Of a stretch of DNA of 60,909 nt, positions 43,999-60,909 are shown piece by piece. Under the pieces are notes generated by a model. The model was not told where the DNA came from, did no database searches, and was given only the letters and a program-made list of their open reading frames with translations. The DNA is from Bacteroidaceae bacterium. Its GTDB lineage: Bacteria > Bacteroidota > Bacteroidia > Bacteroidales > Bacteroidaceae. A program made the position numbers and the translations under genes. Position 1 is the stretch's first letter; each line of letters starts with the position of its first letter. The stretch spans positions 91,974 through 152,882 of the forward strand of contig JAFUVZ010000050.1 in assembly GCA_017471185.1 (NCBI GenBank). Direction: 5' to 3'.

Positions 43999-44238
43999 TC
44001 AGAGTGATTCGCACCAAGCCTTGAATTCATCCATCGATTTCATTTCGAAGACTGGCTCTTTTCCACTACGTACGTCTTCGATAATCTTCATCGTCTTATC
44101 GTTGAGGTACTCGCCTGTCTTAGGATCGTAGAGGCGGGGCTTGTGACAGAAAGGGGCCGTTCCTATAATGTTTTTCAATCCATTAATGGCAGAGAGAATA
44201 TCTTCCAAACGCAACAAATCTCTTTCAGGCTCTCGCAT
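43999..44238 (-). pseudogene. Hybrid remnant of a HepT-like protein and a RelB/DinJ-like antitoxin tail
   Basis: A 79-residue frame. Its first 20 residues (MREPERDLLRLEDILSAIN) look like the start of HepT (DUF86) proteins. From DPKTGEYLNDKTMKIIEDV to the end it looks like the C-terminal part of a RelB/DinJ-type antitoxin. The HepT catalytic region is missing. Together with the frameshifted nucleotidyltransferase just upstream, this suggests recombination between two toxin-antitoxin modules followed by decay. It could still be translated. Both family assignments are from short stretches and are tentative. Confidence 0.5.
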
Positions 44239-44513
44239 AAACTATACTTTATCACGGTTTGCTGTTTTTTCGGCAAAAGGAAAAGGTCACCTTCGACAAC
44301 AAGGTCAACAGGACGATGCAGCAGTTCCTCTAATTCCAGATTCATTGCAAAGAACTTCAATCCCATTCGCGTACCAGGGATAAGGGTAATCATGATATCA
44401 ATGTCACTATCAGCTCGTTCTTCGCCTCGCGAAAACGACCCGAAAACCCACGCCTTATCTACAGGCTGAGTTTTGAAATACTCACTAATTTTATGTGACA
44501 GTTGCGCATCCAT
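44175..44513 (-). pseudogene. MntA-like nucleotidyltransferase with frameshifted 3' end
   Basis: A 112-residue frame with the minimal nucleotidyltransferase signature GSFSRGEERADSDIDIMI (residues 25-42). The active-site part is intact, but the last 33 residues overlap the downstream frame and look unlike MntA. One base change near 44264-44286 gives FPFAEKTANRDKV. One further base at 44242-44246 gives LVYARA and a stop overlapping the HepT-like ATG, the usual MntA-HepT junction. So two single-base indels are inferred. MntA-type enzymes AMPylate HepT toxins; here both genes appear damaged. A consensus promoter lies at 44680-44711. Confidence 0.6.
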
Positions 44514-45377: not shown

Positions 45378-45797
45378 ATGATTGAAAGAGACCACATAGA
45401 ACTCAAGGCACAGCTCGACAGACTGGAGCAGAAGGTTCAGAAGGACAGCCTTCTGATACAGTTCCTCGTCGAGCAGAACAAGGACCTGCAGGAACAGTTG
45501 GATAAGGTTACCCAACTGCTCATCTCGCAGCAGGGCCAGTCTATGCCAAAGCCTGTGGAGGATTCTCCGCTACATCAAGACCAGTGGCTCGACAATCAAG
45601 ATTTGTCACAGTTGCTTCATGTCTCTGTTCGCTCCCTTCAGCGGTATCGAAGTTTAGGAATCCTGCCATATAAGATGATGCACAAGAAGGCTTACTACAC
45701 AAAGGAAGGTGTATTGCAATTCCTAAATTCGAATGTGGTTAGTTATGATAGAGAAGAAGTTGCACTCTACTTCGCAAAACTTGGAATATCCCCATAG
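45378..45797 (+). CDS. Coiled-coil plus excisionase-like HTH protein
   Basis: A 139-residue protein. Residues 1-55 form a heptad-rich coiled coil (LKAQLDRLEQKVQ, LVEQNKDLQEQLDKVTQLL). Residues about 70-120 are a MerR/excisionase-like helix-turn-helix (WLDNQDLSQLLHVSVRSLQRYR, GILPYKMMHKKAYYTKEGVLQFL). Proteins of this kind are frequent on Bacteroidetes conjugative and mobile elements and near restriction loci. It may regulate the genes downstream, which start 152 bases later behind their own promoter. That link is inference. Confidence 0.75.
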   Translation: MIERDHIELKAQLDRLEQKVQKDSLLIQFLVEQNKDLQEQLDKVTQLLISQQGQSMPKPVEDSPLHQDQWLDNQDLSQLLHVSVRSLQRYRSLGILPYKMMHKKAYYTKEGVLQFLNSNVVSYDREEVALYFAKLGISP

Positions 45798-45867: not shown

Positions 45868-45946
45868 ATTGCAATATTTGACTGTATTTTATCTTTTTTC
45901 TTGGATAATTTGATATTTTTTCTTAACTTTGCAGCGAGATTGCAAT
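45868..45946. promoter_or_regulatory. Paired ATTGCAAT palindromes around the methyltransferase promoter
   Basis: The 8-base palindrome ATTGCAAT occurs at 45868-45875 and 45939-45946, the second over the predicted transcription start and 3 bases before the ATG. It could be an operator for one of the neighbouring HTH proteins. Confidence 0.35.
45901..45931 (+). promoter_or_regulatory. Promoter of the adenine methyltransferase gene
   Basis: TTG (45901-45903), a 20-base spacer and TAACTTTG (45924-45931) match the Bacteroidetes consensus with a shortened -33 box. The start codon at 45950 follows 18 bases later. Confidence 0.6.
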
Positions 45947-45949
45947 TCT

Positions 45950-48856
45950 ATGGCAGAAAAGGAATTACAAATTGTTGACTTTCATGACATTCTCAAATTT
46001 GAATTTGAGAAAGATGGAATGTCATCTGTTTTTCTGACCTCAAAGCTACCGGAGTATCTTGCAGAAAACAGGTTTTCCCCTTACATAACTTTAGAGCTGG
46101 AAAACGCTAAAAAGTTTAAGGCCGATGCTGTTTTCTTTCGATATTTAGACAATGGAAGAAATTGTATTCCCCAAATATATATATATGATAACATCACTAA
46201 TCCACGGAGTGATGAGGATTACGCTATTATCCACAGAGATATTTGGAGCGCCTCTGAAATACCATTGTATTTCATAATCGACAGACATCAACTAAGAGTG
46301 TTCGATGGACGTGTACCTATAAAGGTTGAGAAAGATGGAAGACTGGTATCCAATCCCGTCCAGATATTCCATAATATGGATGAGGCTGTGAGGCTATACA
46401 ATGCCGATTTGTTCTCCACGGGTTCCTTCTGGAGTTCTCAAGAAGAATCTGGCAATTTCCTTTACAACAACACAATTAACCAAAAACTGCTATCCTCATT
46501 ACAGCAAACAAGGAAATTCTTAAAGAAATGCTATCCATCAAAACAAAAACTCATAGACCATATACTAATTATCAGTATTCTTATCAAGTATTTAGAAGAA
46601 AACGGAATAGATAAGGAGGGTAATAATTTAGCAGGAAAATTCTTTGAGAATGCTGTTGGCCAAAATAGTTTGGTTGCAGTTATGGAAAACGGTGCCTTTG
46701 TTGATTTACTGGATAAATTGTCAAATCATTTTAATGGAGGTGTCTTTAAGTTATCGGAGGCCGACAAAACAGAACTTCGTAATACAGATTTGACACTTTT
46801 GGCAAAATGGCTGGATGGTAAGTTAGGCAATAACAATCAGTATATGCTATGGCAAGAGTATTCCTTTAAACATATTCCCATAGAACTGATTAGTTTTTTC
46901 TATGAAGAGTTTCTACCCAAAGATGAGAATACCCAAAAGAAAAAAGATACAGGAGCCGTTTATACTCCCAGTCACCTTGTTAAGTTGTTGATAGACGAAT
47001 GCCTGCCAATAATGAATGGTGAATTAAAAAGCCTGATTGACGTCAGTTGCGGTTCTGGTATTTTTTTGGTGACCGCATTTAAACGTTTAGTTCAGATTTG
47101 GCGTTACCAGAACCGGAAAGGAAGGCAGTTGCCGGATATGGATGCCAGCACTCTCCAACAATTGCTGCACCATTATATATACGGTGTTGACATAGATCCC
47201 GTTGCAGCAGAACTGACAACTTTTAGTCTTAACCTATCTCTATGTTCAATGCTTTCTCCAGAACAGATCTGGACTGAATTACGGTTCGATGATTTGAGTA
47301 AAGAAAACATTGTTAATTGTGATTTCTTCCACTATCTTGTTAATTCTTCCAAAAAGTTTGACCTTGTTATTGGAAATCCTCCATTCAAGGAATATTCTGG
47401 TGGTGAATATAATAAGGTAAAACGGTTATTGCAAGAGAACAAACTTGATTTTGAGGTAGAAATTCCTCGATATCAGTCTGCCCTGATGTTTCTTGACAAA
47501 GCAATGAGTATGCTGGAGCCTCAGAGTGGCAAGCTCTGCCTGATTCTCCCAGCAGGTCCATTCCTTTACAGTAAGTTGGAACCCTTTAGAAGTTATTTCT
47601 TCAAGAAATATAACGTCCGTCAGATTATCGATTTCACTTTTTTAAGTGATATGCTCTTTAAAGCAAATATAGCTACGGTTGCACTTTTTGCAGAGAATCA
47701 GGAACCTGGTTCGAAAGATATTACACATATCATAGCCAAACGAACGGGGTCAAGCAGAGAAAGAATATTCTTTGAGTTTGATTACTATGATTTCTATGAT
47801 GTACCAAAGGACATCGCTCAGACGAGTGAAATAGTATGGAAGTGTAATCTTTTAGGTGGGGTGCGCGTGTATGAAATCATGGAAAAATACCAAGCATATT
47901 CTACCATTAAGAATTTCTTAAACATAAGAAAGAAACAATATGGTTGGTATTATGGTGAAGGATATATCATAGGTAATATGAGCCAAAGGGCTGACTATAT
48001 CACAGGAATGCCTTCTGTTGTTGACGATACTTTTACGGATGAAGGGACTTGGAATATTGAAATAGAGAATAGTGAAGGCTTCATACGTCCACGTGAGAAA
48101 AAACTATATGAACCTCCCGTTCTTCTGATAAAGGAAGATATTGGAAAACGACTGATTCCTATAGGAATCAGTCGAGAATATGTCACATTCAAGCACGGAA
48201 TTATTGGCATTCATAGTTCTCCAGAAGATTATGACTCCCTTGAAAAACTTTTAGGCTATATTAAAATCAATAACGACTTTCTGCGTTTCTACATTGTTGC
48301 AAGAAGCCCTCGGGCTGGCATATCGAAATCCATTCATACCCATTTGGCTGGTGACTTCTACGGTTTACCTTATAGCGAGAGTGGCTTCGAACTCACCAAG
48401 AACGAACAAATAGTGGTAGATGATGTTGTGAAATACATTTTCCCATATTTTGACACCACCGTTAATCCCGAGTTGGATAGCATAATTTCATTCAAAGGGC
48501 AAAAACGTGTATTGGTAGATTACGGTTCTGTATATTGTAATAGGCTGAATGTCATTTACGAGAAAAATGGCAAGAAATACAGGCCTGCTGGGATTTATGA
48601 AGGAGATAGTTATTTTGTATATGTAATTGATTATACATCGGAAGAGAAAGAATTTCAAAAATATGAAAGCAAAGTGGATTTAGAAAACTTGCTGGCATAT
48701 AAGACTGAGGAATATGTTGTGAAGCGAATTGTCAGGAAATACGACAACGACCGTATAGTCATAGTTAAGCCCAGACAATTCCGATATTGGATAAAATCTA
48801 TCGCACTTCGTGATGCAGACGACACGTTTGCTGATATAACAGATTATTATGTATAA
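45950..48856 (+). CDS. N6-adenine DNA methyltransferase, Eco57I/type I-like
   Basis: A 968-residue SAM-dependent DNA methyltransferase. Motif I is DVSCGSG at residues 364-370; catalytic motif IV is NPPF at 476-479, marking an amino-methylating enzyme. The N-terminal 170 residues resemble a restriction-nuclease-like domain (FKADAVFF, then PQIYIYDN) but lack the acidic-Lys half of PD-(D/E)XK, so it may be inactive. The C-terminal 400 residues are probably target recognition. The ATG at 45950 fits the promoter; a TTG seven codons upstream would lie before the transcription start. The next gene, with an intact nuclease-like motif, overlaps by 8 bases. Confidence 0.85.
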   Translation: MAEKELQIVDFHDILKFEFEKDGMSSVFLTSKLPEYLAENRFSPYITLELENAKKFKADAVFFRYLDNGRNCIPQIYIYDNITNPRSDEDYAIIHRDIWSASEIPLYFIIDRHQLRVFDGRVPIKVEKDGRLVSNPVQIFHNMDEAVRLYNADLFSTGSFWSSQEESGNFLYNNTINQKLLSSLQQTRKFLKKCYPSKQKLIDHILIISILIKYLEENGIDKEGNNLAGKFFENAVGQNSLVAVMENGAFVDLLDKLSNHFNGGVFKLSEADKTELRNTDLTLLAKWLDGKLGNNNQYMLWQEYSFKHIPIELISFFYEEFLPKDENTQKKKDTGAVYTPSHLVKLLIDECLPIMNGELKSLIDVSCGSGIFLVTAFKRLVQIWRYQNRKGRQLPDMDASTLQQLLHHYIYGVDIDPVAAELTTFSLNLSLCSMLSPEQIWTELRFDDLSKENIVNCDFFHYLVNSSKKFDLVIGNPPFKEYSGGEYNKVKRLLQENKLDFEVEIPRYQSALMFLDKAMSMLEPQSGKLCLILPAGPFLYSKLEPFRSYFFKKYNVRQIIDFTFLSDMLFKANIATVALFAENQEPGSKDITHIIAKRTGSSRERIFFEFDYYDFYDVPKDIAQTSEIVWKCNLLGGVRVYEIMEKYQAYSTIKNFLNIRKKQYGWYYGEGYIIGNMSQRADYITGMPSVVDDTFTDEGTWNIEIENSEGFIRPREKKLYEPPVLLIKEDIGKRLIPIGISREYVTFKHGIIGIHSSPEDYDSLEKLLGYIKINNDFLRFYIVARSPRAGISKSIHTHLAGDFYGLPYSESGFELTKNEQIVVDDVVKYIFPYFDTTVNPELDSIISFKGQKRVLVDYGSVYCNRLNVIYEKNGKKYRPAGIYEGDSYFVYVIDYTSEEKEFQKYESKVDLENLLAYKTEEYVVKRIVRKYDNDRIVIVKPRQFRYWIKSIALRDADDTFADITDYYV

Positions 48857-49529
48857 GCCTGAACTGACATCAATAGGGATACCCCTGCAACCAGAGCAAC
48901 TGTATGTAAAGTTGTATCAGTTCATAGATTCTGTTATTGATGGTTTTGAACCGCCTATACAGGATAATGACAAAAGTGTTGAAGCTGAAGATAAAATCAC
49001 AGTTGGTATGTCACGTTACCTTGACAGTAAAAGTGAGCAATCGGATGATGTCTTCAAGTTTGTAAATCAGGATAGTCCTTGCGATATCGGGGTATATTTG
49101 GGAAGGGCATACAATAAGTATAGCAAGAATTTTTGTTGGATAGAAGCAAAAAGATTACCAACTCCCAAACTGGCAAATAGGGATGAGCGTGAGTATGTTT
49201 TTGTTGATCATTCCAAATTAAACCATAATGGGAATAGGCAATTTGACAACAACGGTGGTATTGAGCGATTCAAAATGAGTAAACACGCTGCCGGGTATCC
49301 TATTGCCATAATGTTTGGATATGTTCAGGATGAGACTTTTGCATTTTGGGAAAGAAAAATTAATGAATGGTTGGATATCTATTCTACGACACTTCCATTT
49401 TCTAGCAAGGAACAACTAAAACGGATAGACAGCCAAGAGAATCGATACATTTCTATCCATCAACGTATAGACAAGAACCATCAGCCAGCGGGAGAAATCA
49501 AACTTTATCATTTTTGGATTAATGTTTGA
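48849..49529 (+). CDS. Putative PD-(D/E)XK nuclease partner of the adenine methyltransferase
   Basis: A 226-residue protein. CDIGV with Asp79 and WIEAKRL with Glu99 and Lys101 give the D-x(19)-E-A-K pattern of PD-(D/E)XK nucleases, with hydrophobic strands around both motifs. A GIERFKMSKHA helix follows, where such enzymes often contact DNA. No closer family was recognised. The 8-base overlap with the methyltransferase gene indicates co-translation, so a restriction partner role is the simplest inference. It might alternatively be an accessory specificity factor. Confidence 0.6.
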   Translation: MYKPELTSIGIPLQPEQLYVKLYQFIDSVIDGFEPPIQDNDKSVEAEDKITVGMSRYLDSKSEQSDDVFKFVNQDSPCDIGVYLGRAYNKYSKNFCWIEAKRLPTPKLANRDEREYVFVDHSKLNHNGNRQFDNNGGIERFKMSKHAAGYPIAIMFGYVQDETFAFWERKINEWLDIYSTTLPFSSKEQLKRIDSQENRYISIHQRIDKNHQPAGEIKLYHFWINV

Positions 49530-49648: not shown

Positions 49649-49656
49649 TAATTTTG
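49649..49656 (+). promoter_or_regulatory. -7 box before the XRE regulator gene
   Basis: TAATTTTG lies 24 bases before the ATG at 49680. TTAGATT (49596) and AATCTAA (49664) form a distant inverted pair around it that could be regulator sites. Confidence 0.5.
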
Positions 49657-49679: not shown

Positions 49680-49925
49680 ATGGCAGGCAACAAAGATCTC
49701 AACCGCCTGAAGGTGGTGCTTGTAGAAAAGAAGAAATCCAGTCTTTGGCTATCTAGACAATTGGGATGTGCGCCAACGACAGTCTCTAAATGGTGTACCA
49801 ATTCGTCGCAACCTCCGCTGGAGATGCTGATGAAGACCGCTAAACTTCTTGATGTGGACTTAAATGACCTCGTCAGGTTTGAAGAATTGGAGCAAAAGCA
49901 AGACCTAAAGTCGAACATGGATTAA
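49680..49925 (+). CDS. XRE-family HTH regulator (controller-like protein)
   Basis: An 81-residue Cro/C1-type HTH protein. The helix-turn-helix is SLWLSRQLGCAPTTVSKWCTN, followed by PPLEMLMKTAKLLDVDLNDLV, the usual fourth and fifth helices. Small XRE proteins just ahead of a restriction-modification operon often act as controller (C) proteins that time methyltransferase before nuclease expression. The cytosine methyltransferase begins 34 bases downstream. The role here is inferred from size and position. Confidence 0.82.
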   Translation: MAGNKDLNRLKVVLVEKKKSSLWLSRQLGCAPTTVSKWCTNSSQPPLEMLMKTAKLLDVDLNDLVRFEELEQKQDLKSNMD

Positions 49926-49959
49926 ATGGCATGTTTGATTTCTGAAATTCGAACATAAT

Positions 49960-51246
49960 ATGAATAAAATATATACATTTATAGACTTGTTTGCAGGTGC
50001 TGGAGGCTTGTCGGAAGGATTCGTCAGAGCAGGGTTCTCTCCTATTGCCCATATTGAGATGGACAAATACGCCTGCGAGACCCTAAAGACAAGAGCTGCA
50101 TATCACTACTTGGAAGAATGCGGTAAACTTGACATCTACAAAAAATACCTATTGGAAAAGAAAGAAGGAGAAAGTGGCCAAAAGTTATGGCACCAGGTTC
50201 CCTCTTCAATTATTGACAGTGTTATTCATGTCACTATTGGCCCGTCAACCATTGATGACATTTTCCACAGAGTTGACAATCTAAAAGGGGATAACTGCGT
50301 TGACCTAATTATAGGTGGCCCTCCTTGTCAAGCATATTCCATTGTTGGGAGGTCAAGGATGGGAAAGGATGTTGAGAAAGACCCTAGAAATGAGTTGTAC
50401 AAATACTATGTCCAATTCCTTGAGAGGTATACTCCTAAAATGTTTGTATTTGAGAATGTTTTAGGTATTATTACGGCAAAGAATGGTGAACCACTAAAGG
50501 ACTTAAAAGAACTTGTTGACGCTATTGGATATGAAATGCAAATGCACGTCCAAAATGCATCAGAACATGGAGTGCTACAGAAAAGGCAACGGGTAATTAT
50601 TGTCGGCTGGCGCAAAGAGAACGTAAACACCAAGGGTCAAAAACACTTTTATCCTATACTGGAAAAAGAAAGTAATTCATATTGCGTAATGGAGGACTTG
50701 TTCTCTGATCTTCCAGAAAGAAAGGCTGGTGAAGGAAGCCTTACAGCCACAGTTCCTTATTCCAAAAAGTTGAGCGATATGCCATATCTCAAAGAATCTG
50801 CTATCCGTAATAGTAATTTTAACTTTACAACACAGCATATTGCCCGTCCACATAATGCTAATGATAGAGAAATATACTGTATGGCTATAAATCAATGGAG
50901 AGAGAAAAGGAAACAGTTAGACTACTCTAAGCTGCCTTCTCATTTGCAGACTCACAAAAACACCAAATCGTTCTTGGATAGATATTCAGTAGTTGACCCT
51001 GATGGATACAGCCATACTGTTGTCGCGCACATATCGAAAGATGGACACTATTACATCTATCCTACACCGAACCCAACGGTTGAGAATGTACGTTCAATAA
51101 CAGTAAGAGAAGCTGCCAGACTACAATCATTTCCAGATGACTACTTCTTTGAAGGAAACAGAGGAGCAGTTTTTAAGCAGATTGGTAACGCAGTTCCTGT
51201 TGTATTAGCCTATAAAATAGCGAAAGAGATTCTAAAACAAATGTAA
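49960..51246 (+). CDS. DNA (cytosine-5-)-methyltransferase
   Basis: A 428-residue m5C methyltransferase. Motif I is LFAGAGGLSEGF (residues 10-21), motif IV GGPPCQAYS with catalytic Cys123, motif VI FENV (164-167) and motif VIII QKRQRVIIVG. Motif IX is SITVREAARLQSFPDDY and motif X GNAVPVVLAYKIAKEI. The region between VIII and IX, about residues 225-370, should hold target recognition; the target sequence cannot be read from it. It is first of the five-enzyme cassette ending at 58849; the next gene starts 3 bases after its stop. Confidence 0.93.
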   Translation: MNKIYTFIDLFAGAGGLSEGFVRAGFSPIAHIEMDKYACETLKTRAAYHYLEECGKLDIYKKYLLEKKEGESGQKLWHQVPSSIIDSVIHVTIGPSTIDDIFHRVDNLKGDNCVDLIIGGPPCQAYSIVGRSRMGKDVEKDPRNELYKYYVQFLERYTPKMFVFENVLGIITAKNGEPLKDLKELVDAIGYEMQMHVQNASEHGVLQKRQRVIIVGWRKENVNTKGQKHFYPILEKESNSYCVMEDLFSDLPERKAGEGSLTATVPYSKKLSDMPYLKESAIRNSNFNFTTQHIARPHNANDREIYCMAINQWREKRKQLDYSKLPSHLQTHKNTKSFLDRYSVVDPDGYSHTVVAHISKDGHYYIYPTPNPTVENVRSITVREAARLQSFPDDYFFEGNRGAVFKQIGNAVPVVLAYKIAKEILKQM

Positions 51247-51249
51247 ACT

Positions 51250-52725
51250 ATGGATTATTCATTACTGCCTAAAACAGAAGCAGTTCCTGAAGCAGCCTCT
51301 ATGATTGAGACCTTTAGGGCTATTGGATACAACCTTGAAACTGCGGTTGCTGACATCTTGGATAATTCCATATCAGCAGGCGCAAAGAACATATATATCG
51401 AAAGAATCTGGGATGGTGGGAAAACTATTATTACCATTAAGGATGATGGTTTAGGTATGAACAGCGAAGAGATTGTTGAAGCTATGCGTCCTGGAGCACA
51501 AAACCCGTTAGAATCCAGAGGTATTAATGATTTAGGTCGTTTTGGGTTAGGAATGAAAACGGCCTCCTTTTCTCAATGTAGGAAGCTGACAGTTATTAGC
51601 AAGAAAGCTGGCTATCATCCTGCCTATTGGACTTGGGATTTAGATTATGTTGCAATGACTCATAAGTGGGAGTTAATAAGTTGGGCACCAGAAACTTTTA
51701 CGAATGCTTTGGATGAACATAATTCTGGCACAATGATAATTTGGACAGATTTAGACAGAGTCATACCACCAGCAACATTAGTTTGTGACATTGTAGCCAA
51801 ACAAAAATTCTCAGATGCATGGGCAAGGGTAAAATCCCATATTGCCATGACCTTCCATCGTTTCATAGAAAGTAATGATATTACTATATATTGGGGAGAG
51901 AATCCCATTGAAGCATGGAACCCCTTCTGCCCAAATGAGAAAAAGACCCAGATATTTCCTACAGAGAACTTATATTTTGGAAGTAATAAGGCAGAAGTGA
52001 AGGGGTACATCTTGCCACACAAGAACAACTTCAGTTCAGAGCAGAAGTATAAAGAAGCAGAGGGGATGAATGGTTATCCTGCCGCCCAAGGTTTCTATGT
52101 ATATCGAGGTAAGAGGCTTCTGCTTGCCGGCAGTTGGCTTAACCTTTTTAGGAAAGAGGACCACTATAAACTTGTACGTATCAGCATTGACCTGCCAAAC
52201 ACGCTGGATTCAGAATGGCAAATTGACATTAAAAAATCTACCGCCATACCACCTCTGTCTTGTCGCGAACAACTCCGTTCTTATGCCCTTGATGTAAGAA
52301 ACAAAGGAATGGAAGTTTACCGACATAGAGGGAAGATATTAAAGAAAAAGGCAGGAATTAACTTTCAGCCCCTTTGGTTAGAAAAGAAAAAAGGTAACAA
52401 ATGGTCTTTTGTGGTTAATCGTGACAACCAATTGATAATGGATTTGCAAGAAGAAGCACAAACAAATCCTAAGCATGCTATTAGTATGTTATTACGCATA
52501 ATAGAAGAGTCAATCCCCACTCCGACTATCTTCATCAAACAATCCAGCGAGGAGAACTTGCAAAAAGAACCATTCTCTGATATGGACACAGCCATTATAC
52601 AAGAGATGTTGCAGAAGATGTTCAACAATTTAAAAGCCTCTGGTCATACCAAAGAACAAGCAAAAGCTGTTCTTAAAACAATAGAACCATTTAATAATTA
52701 CGAAGACTTAATCGAGGAGTTATGA
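51250..52725 (+). CDS. MORC/MutL-like GHKL ATPase of the Z1 defence cassette
   Basis: A 491-residue GHKL (HSP90/MutL/MORC-type) ATPase. The N box is DILDN (residues 35-39), the G1 box KDDGLGM and the G2-like segment RFGLGMKTASFSQC. A transducer-like region with conserved lysine (IDIKKST) follows. Prokaryotic MORC-like ATPases encoded beside Z1 helicases and methyltransferases are an established class of restriction-like systems. It probably acts as an ATP-driven clamp or signal switch for the nuclease parts. Its stop overlaps the next ATG (ATGA). Confidence 0.88.
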   Translation: MDYSLLPKTEAVPEAASMIETFRAIGYNLETAVADILDNSISAGAKNIYIERIWDGGKTIITIKDDGLGMNSEEIVEAMRPGAQNPLESRGINDLGRFGLGMKTASFSQCRKLTVISKKAGYHPAYWTWDLDYVAMTHKWELISWAPETFTNALDEHNSGTMIIWTDLDRVIPPATLVCDIVAKQKFSDAWARVKSHIAMTFHRFIESNDITIYWGENPIEAWNPFCPNEKKTQIFPTENLYFGSNKAEVKGYILPHKNNFSSEQKYKEAEGMNGYPAAQGFYVYRGKRLLLAGSWLNLFRKEDHYKLVRISIDLPNTLDSEWQIDIKKSTAIPPLSCREQLRSYALDVRNKGMEVYRHRGKILKKKAGINFQPLWLEKKKGNKWSFVVNRDNQLIMDLQEEAQTNPKHAISMLLRIIEESIPTPTIFIKQSSEENLQKEPFSDMDTAIIQEMLQKMFNNLKASGHTKEQAKAVLKTIEPFNNYEDLIEEL

Positions 52726-55490
52726 ATATGGAATCTTATCAAAAAGCAATAGAAGTATGTCGAACCTTAATTGGTTTGAAAGAGTCTGTTACTGATAACG
52801 ATATTGACACAGCGGTCAATAGTGTAGTTTTGATGTTTCCCACACTAAGCAAAGAGGTTCTCAAGACGAAACTAATGTCTATTTATAGTGTTCGTGTTGA
52901 ACCTATGCAGATTTTAGAGGGACGTGAACGACGCAAACCTTGGCTTATGGCATTCAAAGCTTCTGAATGTTGTAAATGGTCTTTCTGGAATCGTTACAAA
53001 TATTACCTTGAACATCAAAAAGGATTTGAGCCAGCAACAATACAAGGTGTTGATGATATGACTGACAGGATACTTGACAGGTTCTTTAATCCTCAAAAAA
53101 CAGATGTGATTATAAGCAAGAAAGGTCTCGTGGTCGGTCAGGTTCAATCAGGTAAGACAGCGAACTATACAGGACTAGTTTGTAAAGCTGCTGATTCTGG
53201 TTTTAATCTGATAATTGTACTAGCGGGAACTTATAATAATCTTCGTAGTCAGACCCAGTTGCGATTGGACGAGGGTTTCCTGGGCTTCGATACTCAGTTT
53301 GAGCGAGCCAGTACAAAGGAAACTACCAAAATAGGTGTTGGCTTAATTCCGGGATTTGATGATGCTATTGCTAACTCGTATACAACCAATTCTGAAAAAG
53401 GAGATTTCACCAGTCGTTCAGCCAATACTGCTGGCTTTAACTTTAACGCCCCACAACCAGCACTTCTTGTTGTAAAAAAGAACTCAACAGTATTAAAGCG
53501 CCTTAATACTTGGCTGAATACGCATTCTGAGAACGGGAAAATAAGCAACAAGTCCCTTCTAATGATTGACGATGAGGCAGATAATGCATCTATCAATACA
53601 AATGCGTCAAATGATGACCCGACAACAATTAATAAGTATATTTGTTCTATTTTGAACAAGTTTAATCGTACTGCCTACGTTGGGTATACTGCTACTCCTT
53701 TTGCCAACATCTTTATCCCCCAAGATGATTCCAATCTGTTCCCAAGAGATTTTATCATCAACCTGCCATCCCCTTCAACATATATAGGACCCGATAAGGT
53801 ATTTGGAACCTCATTAATACCAGACGACACGAATGATGAACTATTACCAATCGTTGTACCAATCAATGATTTTACATCATTCGTTCCCAACAAACATAAA
53901 AAAGATGATATTAAACCTACATTATCCGAGGTTCCTGAATCGTTACGACTTGCCATAAAATGTTTCATTGTGACATGTGCAATAAGAAATCTTCGTGGTC
54001 AAGACCACAAACATAATTCAATGCTCATACACGTTAGCAGATTCCAATCATGGCAAAACCACATAAAGGACCTGGTTACACGTATCTTCAATTACTACAA
54101 ACAGGAGATTGAAGCCGGTGATAGAATGGTGTTGGAAGAATTACGAAAAGTATTTGAAGAGGACAATGGAGCTTACAAGTCTTACAAAACGACTACTCAA
54201 ATGATATTGGATTCCAAATTCAAAGATATTGATGATTCATTGGAAATCCACAAGTGGGAAGATGTGAAGTCTCAACTCTTTAAAGCTGTCCAGAAAATAA
54301 CTGTCAAATCTATCAATGGATCGTCAAATGATGCGCTGACATATTACGATAACAAAGACGAGGGAATTTCTGTAATCGCTATTGGTGGTGATAAACTATC
54401 ACGAGGCTTGACACTAGAAGGTCTGTCTGTCAGCTATTTCTTGCGAGCATCAAAAATGTATGACACACTGATGCAGATGGGGCGCTGGTTTGGCTATCGT
54501 TCTGGCTATGTGGATTTATGTAGGTTGTTTACAAGTAGTGAACTGAATGAGTGGTATCGCCATATCACTTTGGCGAGCGAAGAACTTAGAGAAGAGTTTA
54601 GCTATCTATATGAGATTGGTGGAACTCCAGAAGATTACGCCCTTAGAGTAAGAAATCACCCAGGGGTTTTACAGATAACATCACTTGCAAAAATGCGATA
54701 TGCTAGCACGATTGAAGTTTCTTGGGCTGGCAGATTAGTCGAAACATACCAGTTGCTAAAGGATAAGGCCAGCAGGCACATTAATTTTGTGGCAGCTGAC
54801 ACATTATTGTGCAAACTCGGATTGTATACCCAAGCAGGAAACAACTATTTATGGAAAAATATTGACGTTGAAACAATACTGACTTTTTTCGAGAGTTACC
54901 GTTTACCATCTTCAATGGTCAAGGTCAATCTAAGAGCCATATCCGAATACATAAGACAGGTAAACAATTCGGGTGAATTATCTGATTGGAGTGTGGTCTT
55001 GATGAACAAACCTACGGGAGAAAAAACAAGAGAGTGCGATGGCTATTTATCAAATGGGCTTGGATTCAATTACTTTATGCGTATGCCATCAAGTGATGCC
55101 TCTGAGCACTATCTGTTAAGAAAAAACCATATTCTTGGTAATCCACGTGATGAATTTATCGATTTGAACGATGAGATTCTAAAAGAAGCATTGGATGAAA
55201 CAAATAAAAAGTTAAAAGACAGGAAACAATCATATCCAAGCCCTAAACTTGTGAGGGAAAAATATCGTGATGTTAAACATCCTTTGCTGATAATATATCC
55301 CATAAAGCCATCAGCTGATTATGTAACAGCCAACAAAGATGGCAATGAACCTTATATGAGTTTTGCCATTTCGTTCCCGCATACCAATACGGGTGTAGCA
55401 ATTTCATATTCTGCAAATCAACTGACAGACTTTGCAGATACTGAAGATATTTTTGAACAAGAAAACGATAATGTATATGAACAGAGTTGA
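52722..55490 (+). CDS. Z1 domain superfamily-II helicase-like ATPase
   Basis: A 922-residue protein with Walker A GQVQSGKT (residues 139-146), Walker B IDDEAD (282-287) and GYTATPFANIFI as helicase motif III. IGGDKLSRGLTLEGL and QMGRWFGYRSGY form motifs V-VI in the C-terminal half, which holds the Z1 domain. Z1 proteins occur almost only in cassettes with a GHKL ATPase, DUF4420 and AIPR. It probably translocates on or remodels invading DNA. The start shares four bases with the previous stop, and the next gene starts 20 bases before its own stop. Confidence 0.9.
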   Translation: MNMESYQKAIEVCRTLIGLKESVTDNDIDTAVNSVVLMFPTLSKEVLKTKLMSIYSVRVEPMQILEGRERRKPWLMAFKASECCKWSFWNRYKYYLEHQKGFEPATIQGVDDMTDRILDRFFNPQKTDVIISKKGLVVGQVQSGKTANYTGLVCKAADSGFNLIIVLAGTYNNLRSQTQLRLDEGFLGFDTQFERASTKETTKIGVGLIPGFDDAIANSYTTNSEKGDFTSRSANTAGFNFNAPQPALLVVKKNSTVLKRLNTWLNTHSENGKISNKSLLMIDDEADNASINTNASNDDPTTINKYICSILNKFNRTAYVGYTATPFANIFIPQDDSNLFPRDFIINLPSPSTYIGPDKVFGTSLIPDDTNDELLPIVVPINDFTSFVPNKHKKDDIKPTLSEVPESLRLAIKCFIVTCAIRNLRGQDHKHNSMLIHVSRFQSWQNHIKDLVTRIFNYYKQEIEAGDRMVLEELRKVFEEDNGAYKSYKTTTQMILDSKFKDIDDSLEIHKWEDVKSQLFKAVQKITVKSINGSSNDALTYYDNKDEGISVIAIGGDKLSRGLTLEGLSVSYFLRASKMYDTLMQMGRWFGYRSGYVDLCRLFTSSELNEWYRHITLASEELREEFSYLYEIGGTPEDYALRVRNHPGVLQITSLAKMRYASTIEVSWAGRLVETYQLLKDKASRHINFVAADTLLCKLGLYTQAGNNYLWKNIDVETILTFFESYRLPSSMVKVNLRAISEYIRQVNNSGELSDWSVVLMNKPTGEKTRECDGYLSNGLGFNYFMRMPSSDASEHYLLRKNHILGNPRDEFIDLNDEILKEALDETNKKLKDRKQSYPSPKLVREKYRDVKHPLLIIYPIKPSADYVTANKDGNEPYMSFAISFPHTNTGVAISYSANQLTDFADTEDIFEQENDNVYEQS

Positions 55491-56499
55491 TACAATAAAG
55501 GAAGTTTGGCAGAAACTCGAGAGTGAATGTACAGAGGGACTTGTCAAAAGAGCACTTGATATTCCTTCTTATCTTAAGACATTCTGTACATACAGTTTCT
55601 TGGAAAAATACTGTGGGATAGCGTTTTCTTTTCATCAGGACATCAAACTTGATATCACTAGTTTCCAAGATTTGTCCGAATTGAAAGTATCCTTATTCAA
55701 TGATACATCTTTCCCTAAATCAAAAATACTTATTATACAGCTAAACAATAGAGAAAGCCGTGTCAATGACATTTTTGCAACCATCTGTGCAAATATTGTT
55801 AACTCAATTATTGGGGCCGCATCCGAAAAAGAGGGTATGCGGATAGTAATCACTCAAATGAGGAAGTGGAAAGAACTGTTCTCTAGAAGAAAAGACCAAA
55901 AGTTATCTGCGCAAGAACAGCAAGGTCTATTTGGTGAGTTATTCTTCCTCGGAAAACTTTTATTGACATCTATAGACAAGGTCACCACAAATGGCTTTTG
56001 GGTTGGACCAGATCAAGCTCCAAAAGATTTCCAAAGTGACATGTGGGCAGTTGAGGTTAAGACGACATCTGCTAATATTCATTCCGGCATCTCAATCAAT
56101 GGTGAACTACAATTGGACGAAACAGAAGTTGAACACTTATTTCTATTCAATCTGGTTGTTGAAGTATTACAGCAAGATGGACAAACACTACCAGAACTGA
56201 TTGCTGCTATCCGTCAATTGTTGAAAGGTGATAGTAGAGCCACCAGTGTCTTTGAGAGCAAGTTAATTCTTGTTGGCTATTTCGATTTCGATAAAGAATT
56301 CTATAATGATCGCCATTATCACATTCGGAAAGAACAATATTTTCAAATTAAGGACGAGTTCCCAAGAATCAAGAAAGATGATTTGAAGATAGGAGTATCT
56401 GAAGTGAAATATCGTATCTCATTAGACTTCTCTAGTGAGAACATGGTCATCGAAGAAAATGTCATTAATACCATTGAGACTTATGAAAGAAATAAATAA
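55471..56499 (+). CDS. DUF4420 PD-(D/E)XK motif protein
   Basis: A 342-residue protein. GLFGELFFLGKLL near residue 155, then a WVGPDQAPKDFQSDMWAVEVKTT segment with Asp186 or Asp190 and Glu195-Val-Lys197 give the nuclease-like core that defines DUF4420. This is the likely DNA-cutting subunit of the cassette. ATG at 55471 was chosen over more upstream codons because it keeps the overlap with the Z1 gene short; ATG at 55477 is equally possible. It overlaps the AIPR gene by 17 bases. Confidence 0.82.
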   Translation: MYMNRVDTIKEVWQKLESECTEGLVKRALDIPSYLKTFCTYSFLEKYCGIAFSFHQDIKLDITSFQDLSELKVSLFNDTSFPKSKILIIQLNNRESRVNDIFATICANIVNSIIGAASEKEGMRIVITQMRKWKELFSRRKDQKLSAQEQQGLFGELFFLGKLLLTSIDKVTTNGFWVGPDQAPKDFQSDMWAVEVKTTSANIHSGISINGELQLDETEVEHLFLFNLVVEVLQQDGQTLPELIAAIRQLLKGDSRATSVFESKLILVGYFDFDKEFYNDRHYHIRKEQYFQIKDEFPRIKKDDLKIGVSEVKYRISLDFSSENMVIEENVINTIETYERNK

Positions 56500-58849
56500 A
56501 TTCTACAAATCCTTAATACAAGAGGTTTCCACCAGACAAATTGCAAATGAGGAGGGTGATAACCAAGAACAGACATTTACCCGTATGTGTCTGGAACTCT
56601 TAAGTGAAGCAGGTGAAACTGAGAATTCTGATGTTGCATTCTACGAAAGAGACTTGGGGACCAGAAACCAGCAGAAAATAAACGGTTATGCGATAGCTGA
56701 CAATTACGAAACTGTGGACTTATTCATTTCCATATATGAGGGAACTGATGAGCCTGTTACAATATTAAAGAAGGACATAGATAACGCTGCCACACGAATA
56801 ACCAATTATTTCAGGAATGCCATCTATTCTGATTTCAGAAACGAAATAGAAGAATCGTCTGCTATATTTGAATTTACGAACACTTTAGGGACATACAAGG
56901 AACTAAGGGATTCGCTCGTCAGAATAAATGCTTTCATTTTGACAAATGGTGTGTACAAAGGTGACATTCCTCAAAGCAAGGAAATAAGTGGTTATAAGAT
57001 TTATTACCGTATTGTTGATATTAACTATTTATACCAGATTTCCGAGCAGTCTCATGCCCCTATCATTATCAACTTTGAAGAGGAAGGGTGGAAGGTTCCT
57101 TGTCTGCATGCATCATCAAGTAACCCAGATTATGAGGCATACGTTTCTATACTTCCAGGGAAATGTTTATCGAGCTTGTATGAAAGATACGGAGGACGAC
57201 TTCTGGAGCAAAATGTTCGTTCCTTCTTGCAATTCACAGGAAAGATTAATAAAGGCATTAGAGAAACGATAAAAGAACGACCTCACATGTTCTTGGCATA
57301 TAATAACGGTATCGCAGCTACTGCAGATGCAATGGAACTTGATGGCGATGGTAATATCCGGATTATATCCAACTTGCAAATCGTAAACGGTGGACAAACA
57401 ACAGCCTCTATCTATCACACCGAGAAGAAGGATAAAGCTGATATTTCGGACATATATGTACAAGTAAAATTCTCGATAGTAAAGAAGAAAGACGAATATG
57501 CCAATATCGTTTCAGATATCTCGAAATATGCAAACACCCAGAACAAGGTAAACAATGCAGACTTCTCTGCCAACAATCCGATACTTGTTGAGCTAGAGAA
57601 AGTTTCACGCTATGTGATGACTCCCGTTACACCAGAGCGTTCAATACAAACCTATTGGTTCTTTGAGCGTGCAAGGTCTCAATATAAGAACATTCGTCTA
57701 AAAGAGGGCTTCACCAAGTCAAGACAAAAAGCTTTCGACCTTAAATATCCCAAGAATCAAATGTTCACAAAAGTTGAATTGGCCAAGTACATCAACTGTT
57801 TTGAAGAGGTCTATGAGGGCAGTAAATTAGTAATTGGTCCACATATTGTAGTAAGAGGCTCTGAAAAGAACTATGCTCAGTTCGTTGCCAAGAACCTGCC
57901 TTCAAGTGCTAAGAAAATCAACAACATCTATTTTGAGGACACTATTGCAAAAGCCATTCTTTTCAAAGCAGCAGACGAACTTTATGGAACTAAGAGGAAA
58001 GGTAACAATATAGGCGAGCTGAAATCTGTGGTAGTTCCTTACACCATAGGTTTACTAAATCACATGGTTGCTGGAAGAATAAATTTGTATAAAATATGGA
58101 AGAACCAAAAGGTTTCGGAATCGTTAGCAAAAGTCTTATATTCTTTGATGACGCAGGTTAACCCATTCATCATGAATATTTCGCCTTCTAACAACTATCT
58201 CGAATGGGCTAAGAAAGAAGAGTGTTGGACTGCCGTCAGAGACAATAGTGAATGGAAGTGCGATTTGAAGTCGATAGAAGAAGACCTAATTAATCTAAAT
58301 ACAACTGTGACAAGAAAAGTAACAGTCAATACGGATACTGTTGACAAGTATGACCATGACCTAAAAATTGTAATATCTATTCCATACAAGCTATGGATTA
58401 AATTTGCAGAATGGGGAGCAGAATCTGGCATGCTAAGTCTGAACCTTCAGTCAAAAGCCAAAGAGATAGCAAATGATTTGAAGTATAATCATAAATTGAC
58501 ATCTGCAACGGTTTCACGAGGTATGACTATTTTTGACAAGGTCTGTGAGGAGAATTATGAACTCTTGGAAGAGATAGACCGCTTGAAAGAGGAAGAACTA
58601 GAAGAGAAAGAACAAAAAGAGAAACAGCGCAATACTGTCAGGAGTATTAATGTAAATGAGATAGAAATCGATATGGAACTCATCAAAAGAATGGTCGAAT
58701 GGGACAGAAAGAATCGTGTTTTAGAAGGTTGGAAGTTTAAGATTATGCATGATGTTGCAATAGGTCTGAAGCCTTTAACGGATAAACTAAAATGGGGATT
58801 TCGACTTAATCTCAAAACTTTGCTCATGAGAGGTTTCAACGAATTATAG
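56483..58849 (+). CDS. AIPR (abortive infection phage resistance) protein
   Basis: A 788-residue protein with the AIPR domain in its middle: YNNGIAATADAM, SNLQIVNGGQTTASIYH (Asn302-Thr306) and ISKYANTQNKVNNADFSANNP. The C-terminal region has a charged coiled coil (EEIDRLKEEELEEKEQKEKQR) near residue 700. AIPR proteins are linked to phage resistance by abortive infection and close this type of Z1 cassette. The biochemical activity is not settled. The start MKEINKFYK was chosen because it gives a short overlap with the DUF4420 gene. Confidence 0.87.
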   Translation: MKEINKFYKSLIQEVSTRQIANEEGDNQEQTFTRMCLELLSEAGETENSDVAFYERDLGTRNQQKINGYAIADNYETVDLFISIYEGTDEPVTILKKDIDNAATRITNYFRNAIYSDFRNEIEESSAIFEFTNTLGTYKELRDSLVRINAFILTNGVYKGDIPQSKEISGYKIYYRIVDINYLYQISEQSHAPIIINFEEEGWKVPCLHASSSNPDYEAYVSILPGKCLSSLYERYGGRLLEQNVRSFLQFTGKINKGIRETIKERPHMFLAYNNGIAATADAMELDGDGNIRIISNLQIVNGGQTTASIYHTEKKDKADISDIYVQVKFSIVKKKDEYANIVSDISKYANTQNKVNNADFSANNPILVELEKVSRYVMTPVTPERSIQTYWFFERARSQYKNIRLKEGFTKSRQKAFDLKYPKNQMFTKVELAKYINCFEEVYEGSKLVIGPHIVVRGSEKNYAQFVAKNLPSSAKKINNIYFEDTIAKAILFKAADELYGTKRKGNNIGELKSVVVPYTIGLLNHMVAGRINLYKIWKNQKVSESLAKVLYSLMTQVNPFIMNISPSNNYLEWAKKEECWTAVRDNSEWKCDLKSIEEDLINLNTTVTRKVTVNTDTVDKYDHDLKIVISIPYKLWIKFAEWGAESGMLSLNLQSKAKEIANDLKYNHKLTSATVSRGMTIFDKVCEENYELLEEIDRLKEEELEEKEQKEKQRNTVRSINVNEIEIDMELIKRMVEWDRKNRVLEGWKFKIMHDVAIGLKPLTDKLKWGFRLNLKTLLMRGFNEL

Positions 58850-58904
58850 GGCAGCAGTCGGTGGTTGTTATTAATCATGTCATAAAAACAAGCAATTACA
58901 GCGA

Positions 58905-60909
58905 TGATAGCATCTAATCAGATATTAAAATCATATTATGGTTACGACTCCTTCCGTCCCTTGCAGGAGGAGATTATCAGTCATGCGCTGCAACGGAAGG
59001 ATGCGCTGGTTCTGATGCCTACGGGTGGCGGCAAGTCGATATGCTTTCAGATTCCTGCCTTGATGATGGAGGGAACGGCTATTGTGGTGTCGCCGCTTAT
59101 CTCGCTGATGAAGGACCAGGTGGAGGCACTGCGGGCCAACGGCATTGCAGCGGAGGCGCTGAATAGTGCCAATGACGAGATAGCCAACAGGCAGATAACA
59201 GAACGATGTCTGCGTGGTGATGTGAAACTGCTGTATATCTCGCCAGAGCGACTGATGACAGAACTGAGATGGATGCAGACGATGTTGAAGGTATCGCTCT
59301 TTGCCATTGACGAGGCGCATTGTATCTCGCAATGGGGGCATGACTTCAGACCGGAATACACACAGCTGGGCAATCTGCATGAACTGTTCCCCAATGTGCC
59401 TGTCATGGCGCTTACGGCTACGGCAGACAAGATAACGAAGGCTGACATCATAGAGCAGTTGCACCTGAAGGAGCCGGAGGTCTTTATCAGTTCGTTTGAC
59501 CGCCCGAATCTGAGCTTAGACGTAAGGCGTGGCTATGCGGCCAAGGATAAACTGCGCACCATCGCGAACCTGATTCGTCGTCACCGTGGAGAGAGCGGCA
59601 TCGTCTATTGCCTGGCGAAGAAAACCTGTGAGAAACTGGCAGAGAAACTTCAGAAGGAAGGTATCTCGGTGGGTGTCTATCATGCTGGACTGCCTACGGA
59701 TGAGCGCAATCGGGTACAGGAGGACTTTATCAATGACCGCATTCAGGTGGTCTGTGCTACGATTGCTTTCGGAATGGGGATTGACAAGAGTAATGTGCGC
59801 TTTGTGGTGCATTATAACCTGCCCAAGAGCATCGAGAACTACTATCAGGAAATAGGGCGAGGAGGACGTGACGGACTGCCTTGCGAGACCATCTTGTTCT
59901 ACAACATTGGAGATATTATCACGTTGCAGCGTTTCGCAGAGGAAAGCGGACAGCGGGAAATCAATGCGGAGAAACTACAACGGATGCAGGAGTATGCCGA
60001 GGCACAGGTTTGCAGGCGACGCATCCTGCTGAACTATTTTGGCGAGACCAGCGACAAAGGCTGTGGCAACTGTGACGTTTGCCATACACCCCCACAGACG
60101 TTTGATGGAACGGAACTGGTTCAAAAGGCGCTTTCTGCCATACTGAGAACGGGCGAACAAGTGGGATTCACGCTGACGATAGACATTCTGCACGGCAGCT
60201 TCTCACCTGAAGTCATATCGCGTGGGTACAATCATATCAAGACCTTTGCTGCTGTCAGGGATGTCCCAGTTAGAGACTGGCACGACTATCTGCTACAGAT
60301 GCTGCAGATGGGATATATCGAGATAGCCTACAATGAGGACAACCACCTGCACGTTACGCAACTGGGGCAGGATGTTGTTCGTGGGGAAAAACGGGTACAG
60401 TTGGCAGTCATCAGTCGTGAGGACTTTAGTGTAAAGGGCCGTCACAAGCAAATGCTGGAAGAAGAGGTTTCAGCAGTGACTGTTAGTGGTCAGAGTGAGA
60501 ACATGGAACTGTTTGAACGGCTGAAGGTGCTGCGGAAAGAGATTGCCGACGAAACAGGCTATCCAGCATTCGTAGTGATGTCTGACAAGACGCTCCATGT
60601 GCTGGCCACCGATATGCCAACAACGCTTGCTGCATTTGGCAATACCTTTGGGATAGGTGAACATAAGCGTGACACCTACGGCAAACGGTTCATTGATGTG
60701 ATTAAGCAATATGCTCCAGCGGTAGAGGAACTCCCGTTCAAGGAGGCAGACGTTACCCTTGCCCCTCCAACGGTAGAACCCAAAGAAGAAAAGAAGAAAA
60801 AGCAGAAGAATCAGATTACGACACAAGGGAGAACATACGTCATAGATGAAGACATTTGGGAATCCATTGAATGGCGGAAGGTTCTGAAAGAGATTACGGA
60901 GAGGGCTTA
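58905..60909 (+). CDS. recQ: ATP-dependent DNA helicase RecQ, cut by the window end
   Basis: At least 668 residues; the frame is open at the right edge. Motif 0 is [14 protein letters not shown], Walker A TGGGKS, Walker B DEAH, then motif [13 protein letters not shown]. The RecQ zinc site follows ([18 protein letters not shown]), then an RQC winged helix and an HRDC-like region. A lysine-rich linker ([12 protein letters not shown]) precedes the missing tail. It unwinds DNA in recombination and fork repair. It lies 55 bases after the AIPR stop with no visible terminator between, so read-through from the defence operon is possible; it is probably a host flanking gene. Confidence 0.93.

Follow-up and report, generated by a model that had tools for sequence, protein, structure and literature searches.

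A Z1/MORC/AIPR defense cassette with MzaB-E relatives and a cytosine methyltransferase in a Bacteroidaceae bacterium

Introduction

Restriction-type cassettes have been described that combine a MORC-family GHKL ATPase bearing the S5 motif GhXhhpXXRhl, an SF2 protein bearing DThhQXuRhFG, an E-D-ExK nuclease and a cytosine methylase; the same description lists AIPR as a common component of restriction-modification (R-M) operons. The MZA anti-phage system (MzaABCDE) is represented in PADLOC and by NCBIfam NF041931-NF041935. Here we analyze a six-gene cassette in a 60,909-nt stretch of Bacteroidaceae DNA (contig JAFUVZ010000050.1; hereafter the window, to whose positions all coordinates refer). 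The original prediction described it as a Z1/MORC/AIPR cassette with a cytosine methyltransferase, and domain matches for all six proteins confirmed that observation. The cassette is genuine and belongs to a type of bacterial antiviral gene set that has been described before.

Results

The cassette and its relation to described systems

The six genes, with their Pfam matches, are as follows.

49680..49925, + strand: XRE/Cro-type regulator, 81 amino acids, putative C-protein (HTH_26, HTH_3)
49960..51246, + strand: DNA cytosine-5 methyltransferase, 428 amino acids, PCQ Cys123 (PF00145, 217 bits)
51250..52725, + strand: MORC-family GHKL ATPase, MzaB-like, 491 amino acids (HATPase_c_3, 113 bits)
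52722..55490, + strand: MzaC-like Z1 gene (PF10593, 284 bits)
55471..56499, + strand: DUF4420 PD-(D/E)XK nuclease, MzaD-like, 342 amino acids (PF14390, 262 bits)
56483..58849, + strand: AIPR protein, MzaE-like, 788 amino acids (PF10592, 302 bits; PF22879, 139 bits)

The XRE gene is similarly placed in four relatives (L213, L214, L215 and L046). Conservation was checked on proteins above set scores and lengths. The motif residues of the cytosine methyltransferase were conserved in 95% or more of 30 sequences, and the MORC ATPase retained the N and G box residues D35, D38, N39, D65, G67 and G69 (41 sequences), together with an S5 motif, GFYVYRGKRLL, at residue 281. In the MzaC-like protein K145, D283, D284, E285, D287, D581, Q585 and R588 were conserved, as was DTLMQMGRWFG at 581-591. 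E156, D186, E195 and K197 of the DUF4420 nuclease were retained in 95% or more of 38 sequences. This is the fastest-diverging cassette protein, at about 40% identity where its partners show 60%, with its catalytic residues nonetheless fixed; it is a candidate target-recognition protein.

Relatives of MzaB, MzaC, MzaD and MzaE occur here in the identical order, with PADLOC scores of 325, 595, 98 and 287 bits, respectively. Canonical MZA membership was ruled out by MzaA and by the NCBIfam equivalog cut-offs, against which MzaB-E scored 391.7 vs 850, 685.1 vs 1500, 146.2 vs 420 and 372.6 vs 1050 bits. The sole match to MzaA (sigma-70-like, 726 positions) in the genome, which is 80% complete, was the housekeeping sigma gene on contig 80, below the cut-off, and none of the six cassette proteins contained a sigma domain. 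Unlike MZA, the window cassette lacks MzaA and carries XRE and cytosine-5 methyltransferase genes.

CglI and NgoAVII differ further: theirs is a three-gene system without MORC, DUF4420 or AIPR, whose nuclease is a PLD/B3 protein, and no PLD or B3 domain was found in the six proteins. The comparison with Pin25611FIII of Prevotella intermedia ATCC 25611 (PMC5608340) was by gene length: its methyltransferase gene has 1083 bases vs 1287 here.

The AIPR protein

The AlphaFold model of AIPR (pLDDT 78.7) suggests three parts. The N-terminal domain appears to be restriction-type without a conserved lysine, judging by structural matches and a column check, the middle domain is tentatively ParB/Srx-like, and the C-terminal part is helical. 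Comparison of AIPR with DndB and ParB profiles by hhalign gave no match; this was a weak test, since ParB vs DndB also failed.

One could instead suppose an abortive infection system in which AIPR is a toxin, i.e., a HEPN RNase that kills the cell once the restriction genes are disturbed. HEPN RNases have as their hallmark a helical domain with a conserved R-x(4-6)-H. Within residues 1-192 of AIPR no histidine column reached 70%, and the matches there were to restriction folds; HEPN was not listed among them, which does not exclude HEPN. A match to PHROG 1841, 'Abi alpha-like abortive infection mechanism' (133 bits), favors the toxin, as do the name of the protein and a 2012 proposal that AIPR is a HEPN RNase (PMC3506569). 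We regard such a toxin as unlikely.

The methyltransferase, the accessory slot and Vsr

It is similarly improbable, in our estimate, that the methyltransferase serves in effect as an orphan epigenetic marker, with the other four genes acting independently of methylation, e.g., as a sensor of DNA topology or replication structures. In favor of this, the methyltransferase is swapped between cassettes, as in those resembling L212, its coupling to the core is loose, and the P. intermedia counterpart is classed as an orphan. The window methyltransferase is weakly predicted to mark a GCWGC-like site. The coupling comparison used the best-scoring methyltransferase of each stretch, at any position, and was repeated on the 21 of 34 loci with a methyltransferase at most 500 bases away on the same strand.

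In some relatives the gap between the methyltransferase and MORC genes is an accessory slot, which is empty (3 bases) in the window. Its contents include a protein that carries two GHKL/histidine-kinase-like ATPase domains and has a partner, proteins of the NOV_C or DUF3883 type, a fusion of kinase and ORC/CDC6-like parts, and an IS21 element. Examples are:

L210, 1213-6824
L211, 13062-13832
L217, 12984-16472
L218, 2212-7082
L219, 13072-16805
L208, 2117-6799

Unlike the described restriction-type cassettes, the window cassette has no Vsr gene, nor did one turn up elsewhere in the genome, which is 80% complete. Vsr was present in 9 of 10 full cassettes read from the host's genus; among six close genus cassettes it follows AIPR in five (L210, L211, L213-L215), whereas in L212 it lies ahead of the methyltransferase.

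The neighboring adenine methyltransferase/nuclease pair

Upstream of the cassette lie two further genes.

45950..48856, + strand: N6-adenine methyltransferase, 968 amino acids, separate neighbor
48849..49529, + strand: PD-(D/E)XK-type nuclease partner, 226 amino acids, separate neighbor, in no library family

Among 80 methylase loci (L084-L163), the best 80 of at least 507 relatives, the nuclease accompanied the methylase in 76; in the other four (L103, L141, L148, L152) the sequence stops about 200 bases or less from the methylase. An invariant E-D-ExK set (E47, D79, E99, K101) was present in 76/76 nuclease sequences, the check covering 75 single-nuclease loci and leaving out L122, which has two nuclease pieces. 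A low-confidence model gave restriction-fold matches, and no family was matched in Pfam, PADLOC, NCBIfam or PHROGs. Seven nuclease members searched against Pfam (E 1) and PADLOC (E 0.1) yielded single-member matches only (best 0.073 and 0.017). Type IIG enzymes join nuclease and methyltransferase in one chain; the nuclease partner here is a separate 226-residue protein. The two-gene adenine R-M-like unit occurs in several phyla.

The original prediction further proposed that the whole 13-kb block could be one composite system. The pair and the cassette are indeed adjacent, on the same strand and 150 bases apart, and both lie within a block of low guanine-cytosine (GC) content. Co-occurrence across genomes, with MT6 matches below 60 bits dropped from two of the counts (known case L182, 29 bits), nevertheless spoke against a composite, which was ruled out on these data and which we consider very improbable. 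Overall, the original interpretation was partly supported, and the pair beside the cassette seems to form a two-gene system of its own.

Promoters and flanks

A pattern search found TAnnTTTG, which we take to be a promoter-like element, at two sites.

49649..49656, + strand: TAnnTTTG, 23 bases before the XRE start
45924..45931, + strand: TAnnTTTG, 18 bases before the adenine methyltransferase start

Sigma-70-type promoter and terminator patterns occurred at shuffle level only. Among repeats and att-like ends, three two-copy families (18-20 bases) were found, none framing the block, and there was no inverted pair. The left-flank ligase gene (E 1e-200) occurred in 4 of 41 genus genomes besides its own. 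In three of these four genomes the two flank genes are followed by open reading frames (ORFs) that match nothing in the window and are laid out differently in each genome; none of the three showed a clean empty site. Plasmids held no near match of the block, and searching the same genome for ResIII gave no lead.

On the minus strand at 43999-44513, where the low-GC block has its left edge, lie small overlapping ORFs that resemble an MNT nucleotidyltransferase (motif GSxxRG...SDID) and a short HepT-like start; they are possibly what is left of a toxin-antitoxin pair. Directly upstream of the adenine pair, 45378-45797 encodes a 139-residue protein with an HTH_17 domain and, by eye, a coiled-coil-like N-terminus. 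The gene recQ (58904-60909) starts 55 bases after AIPR, and a second copy, about 61% identical, is on G000 contig 79; the right flank stops with the contig, which ends inside recQ.

Discussion

Taken together, and judged from sequence, the locus looks like a DNA-marking enzyme that travels with an apparent four-protein, ATP-driven DNA-cutting machine.
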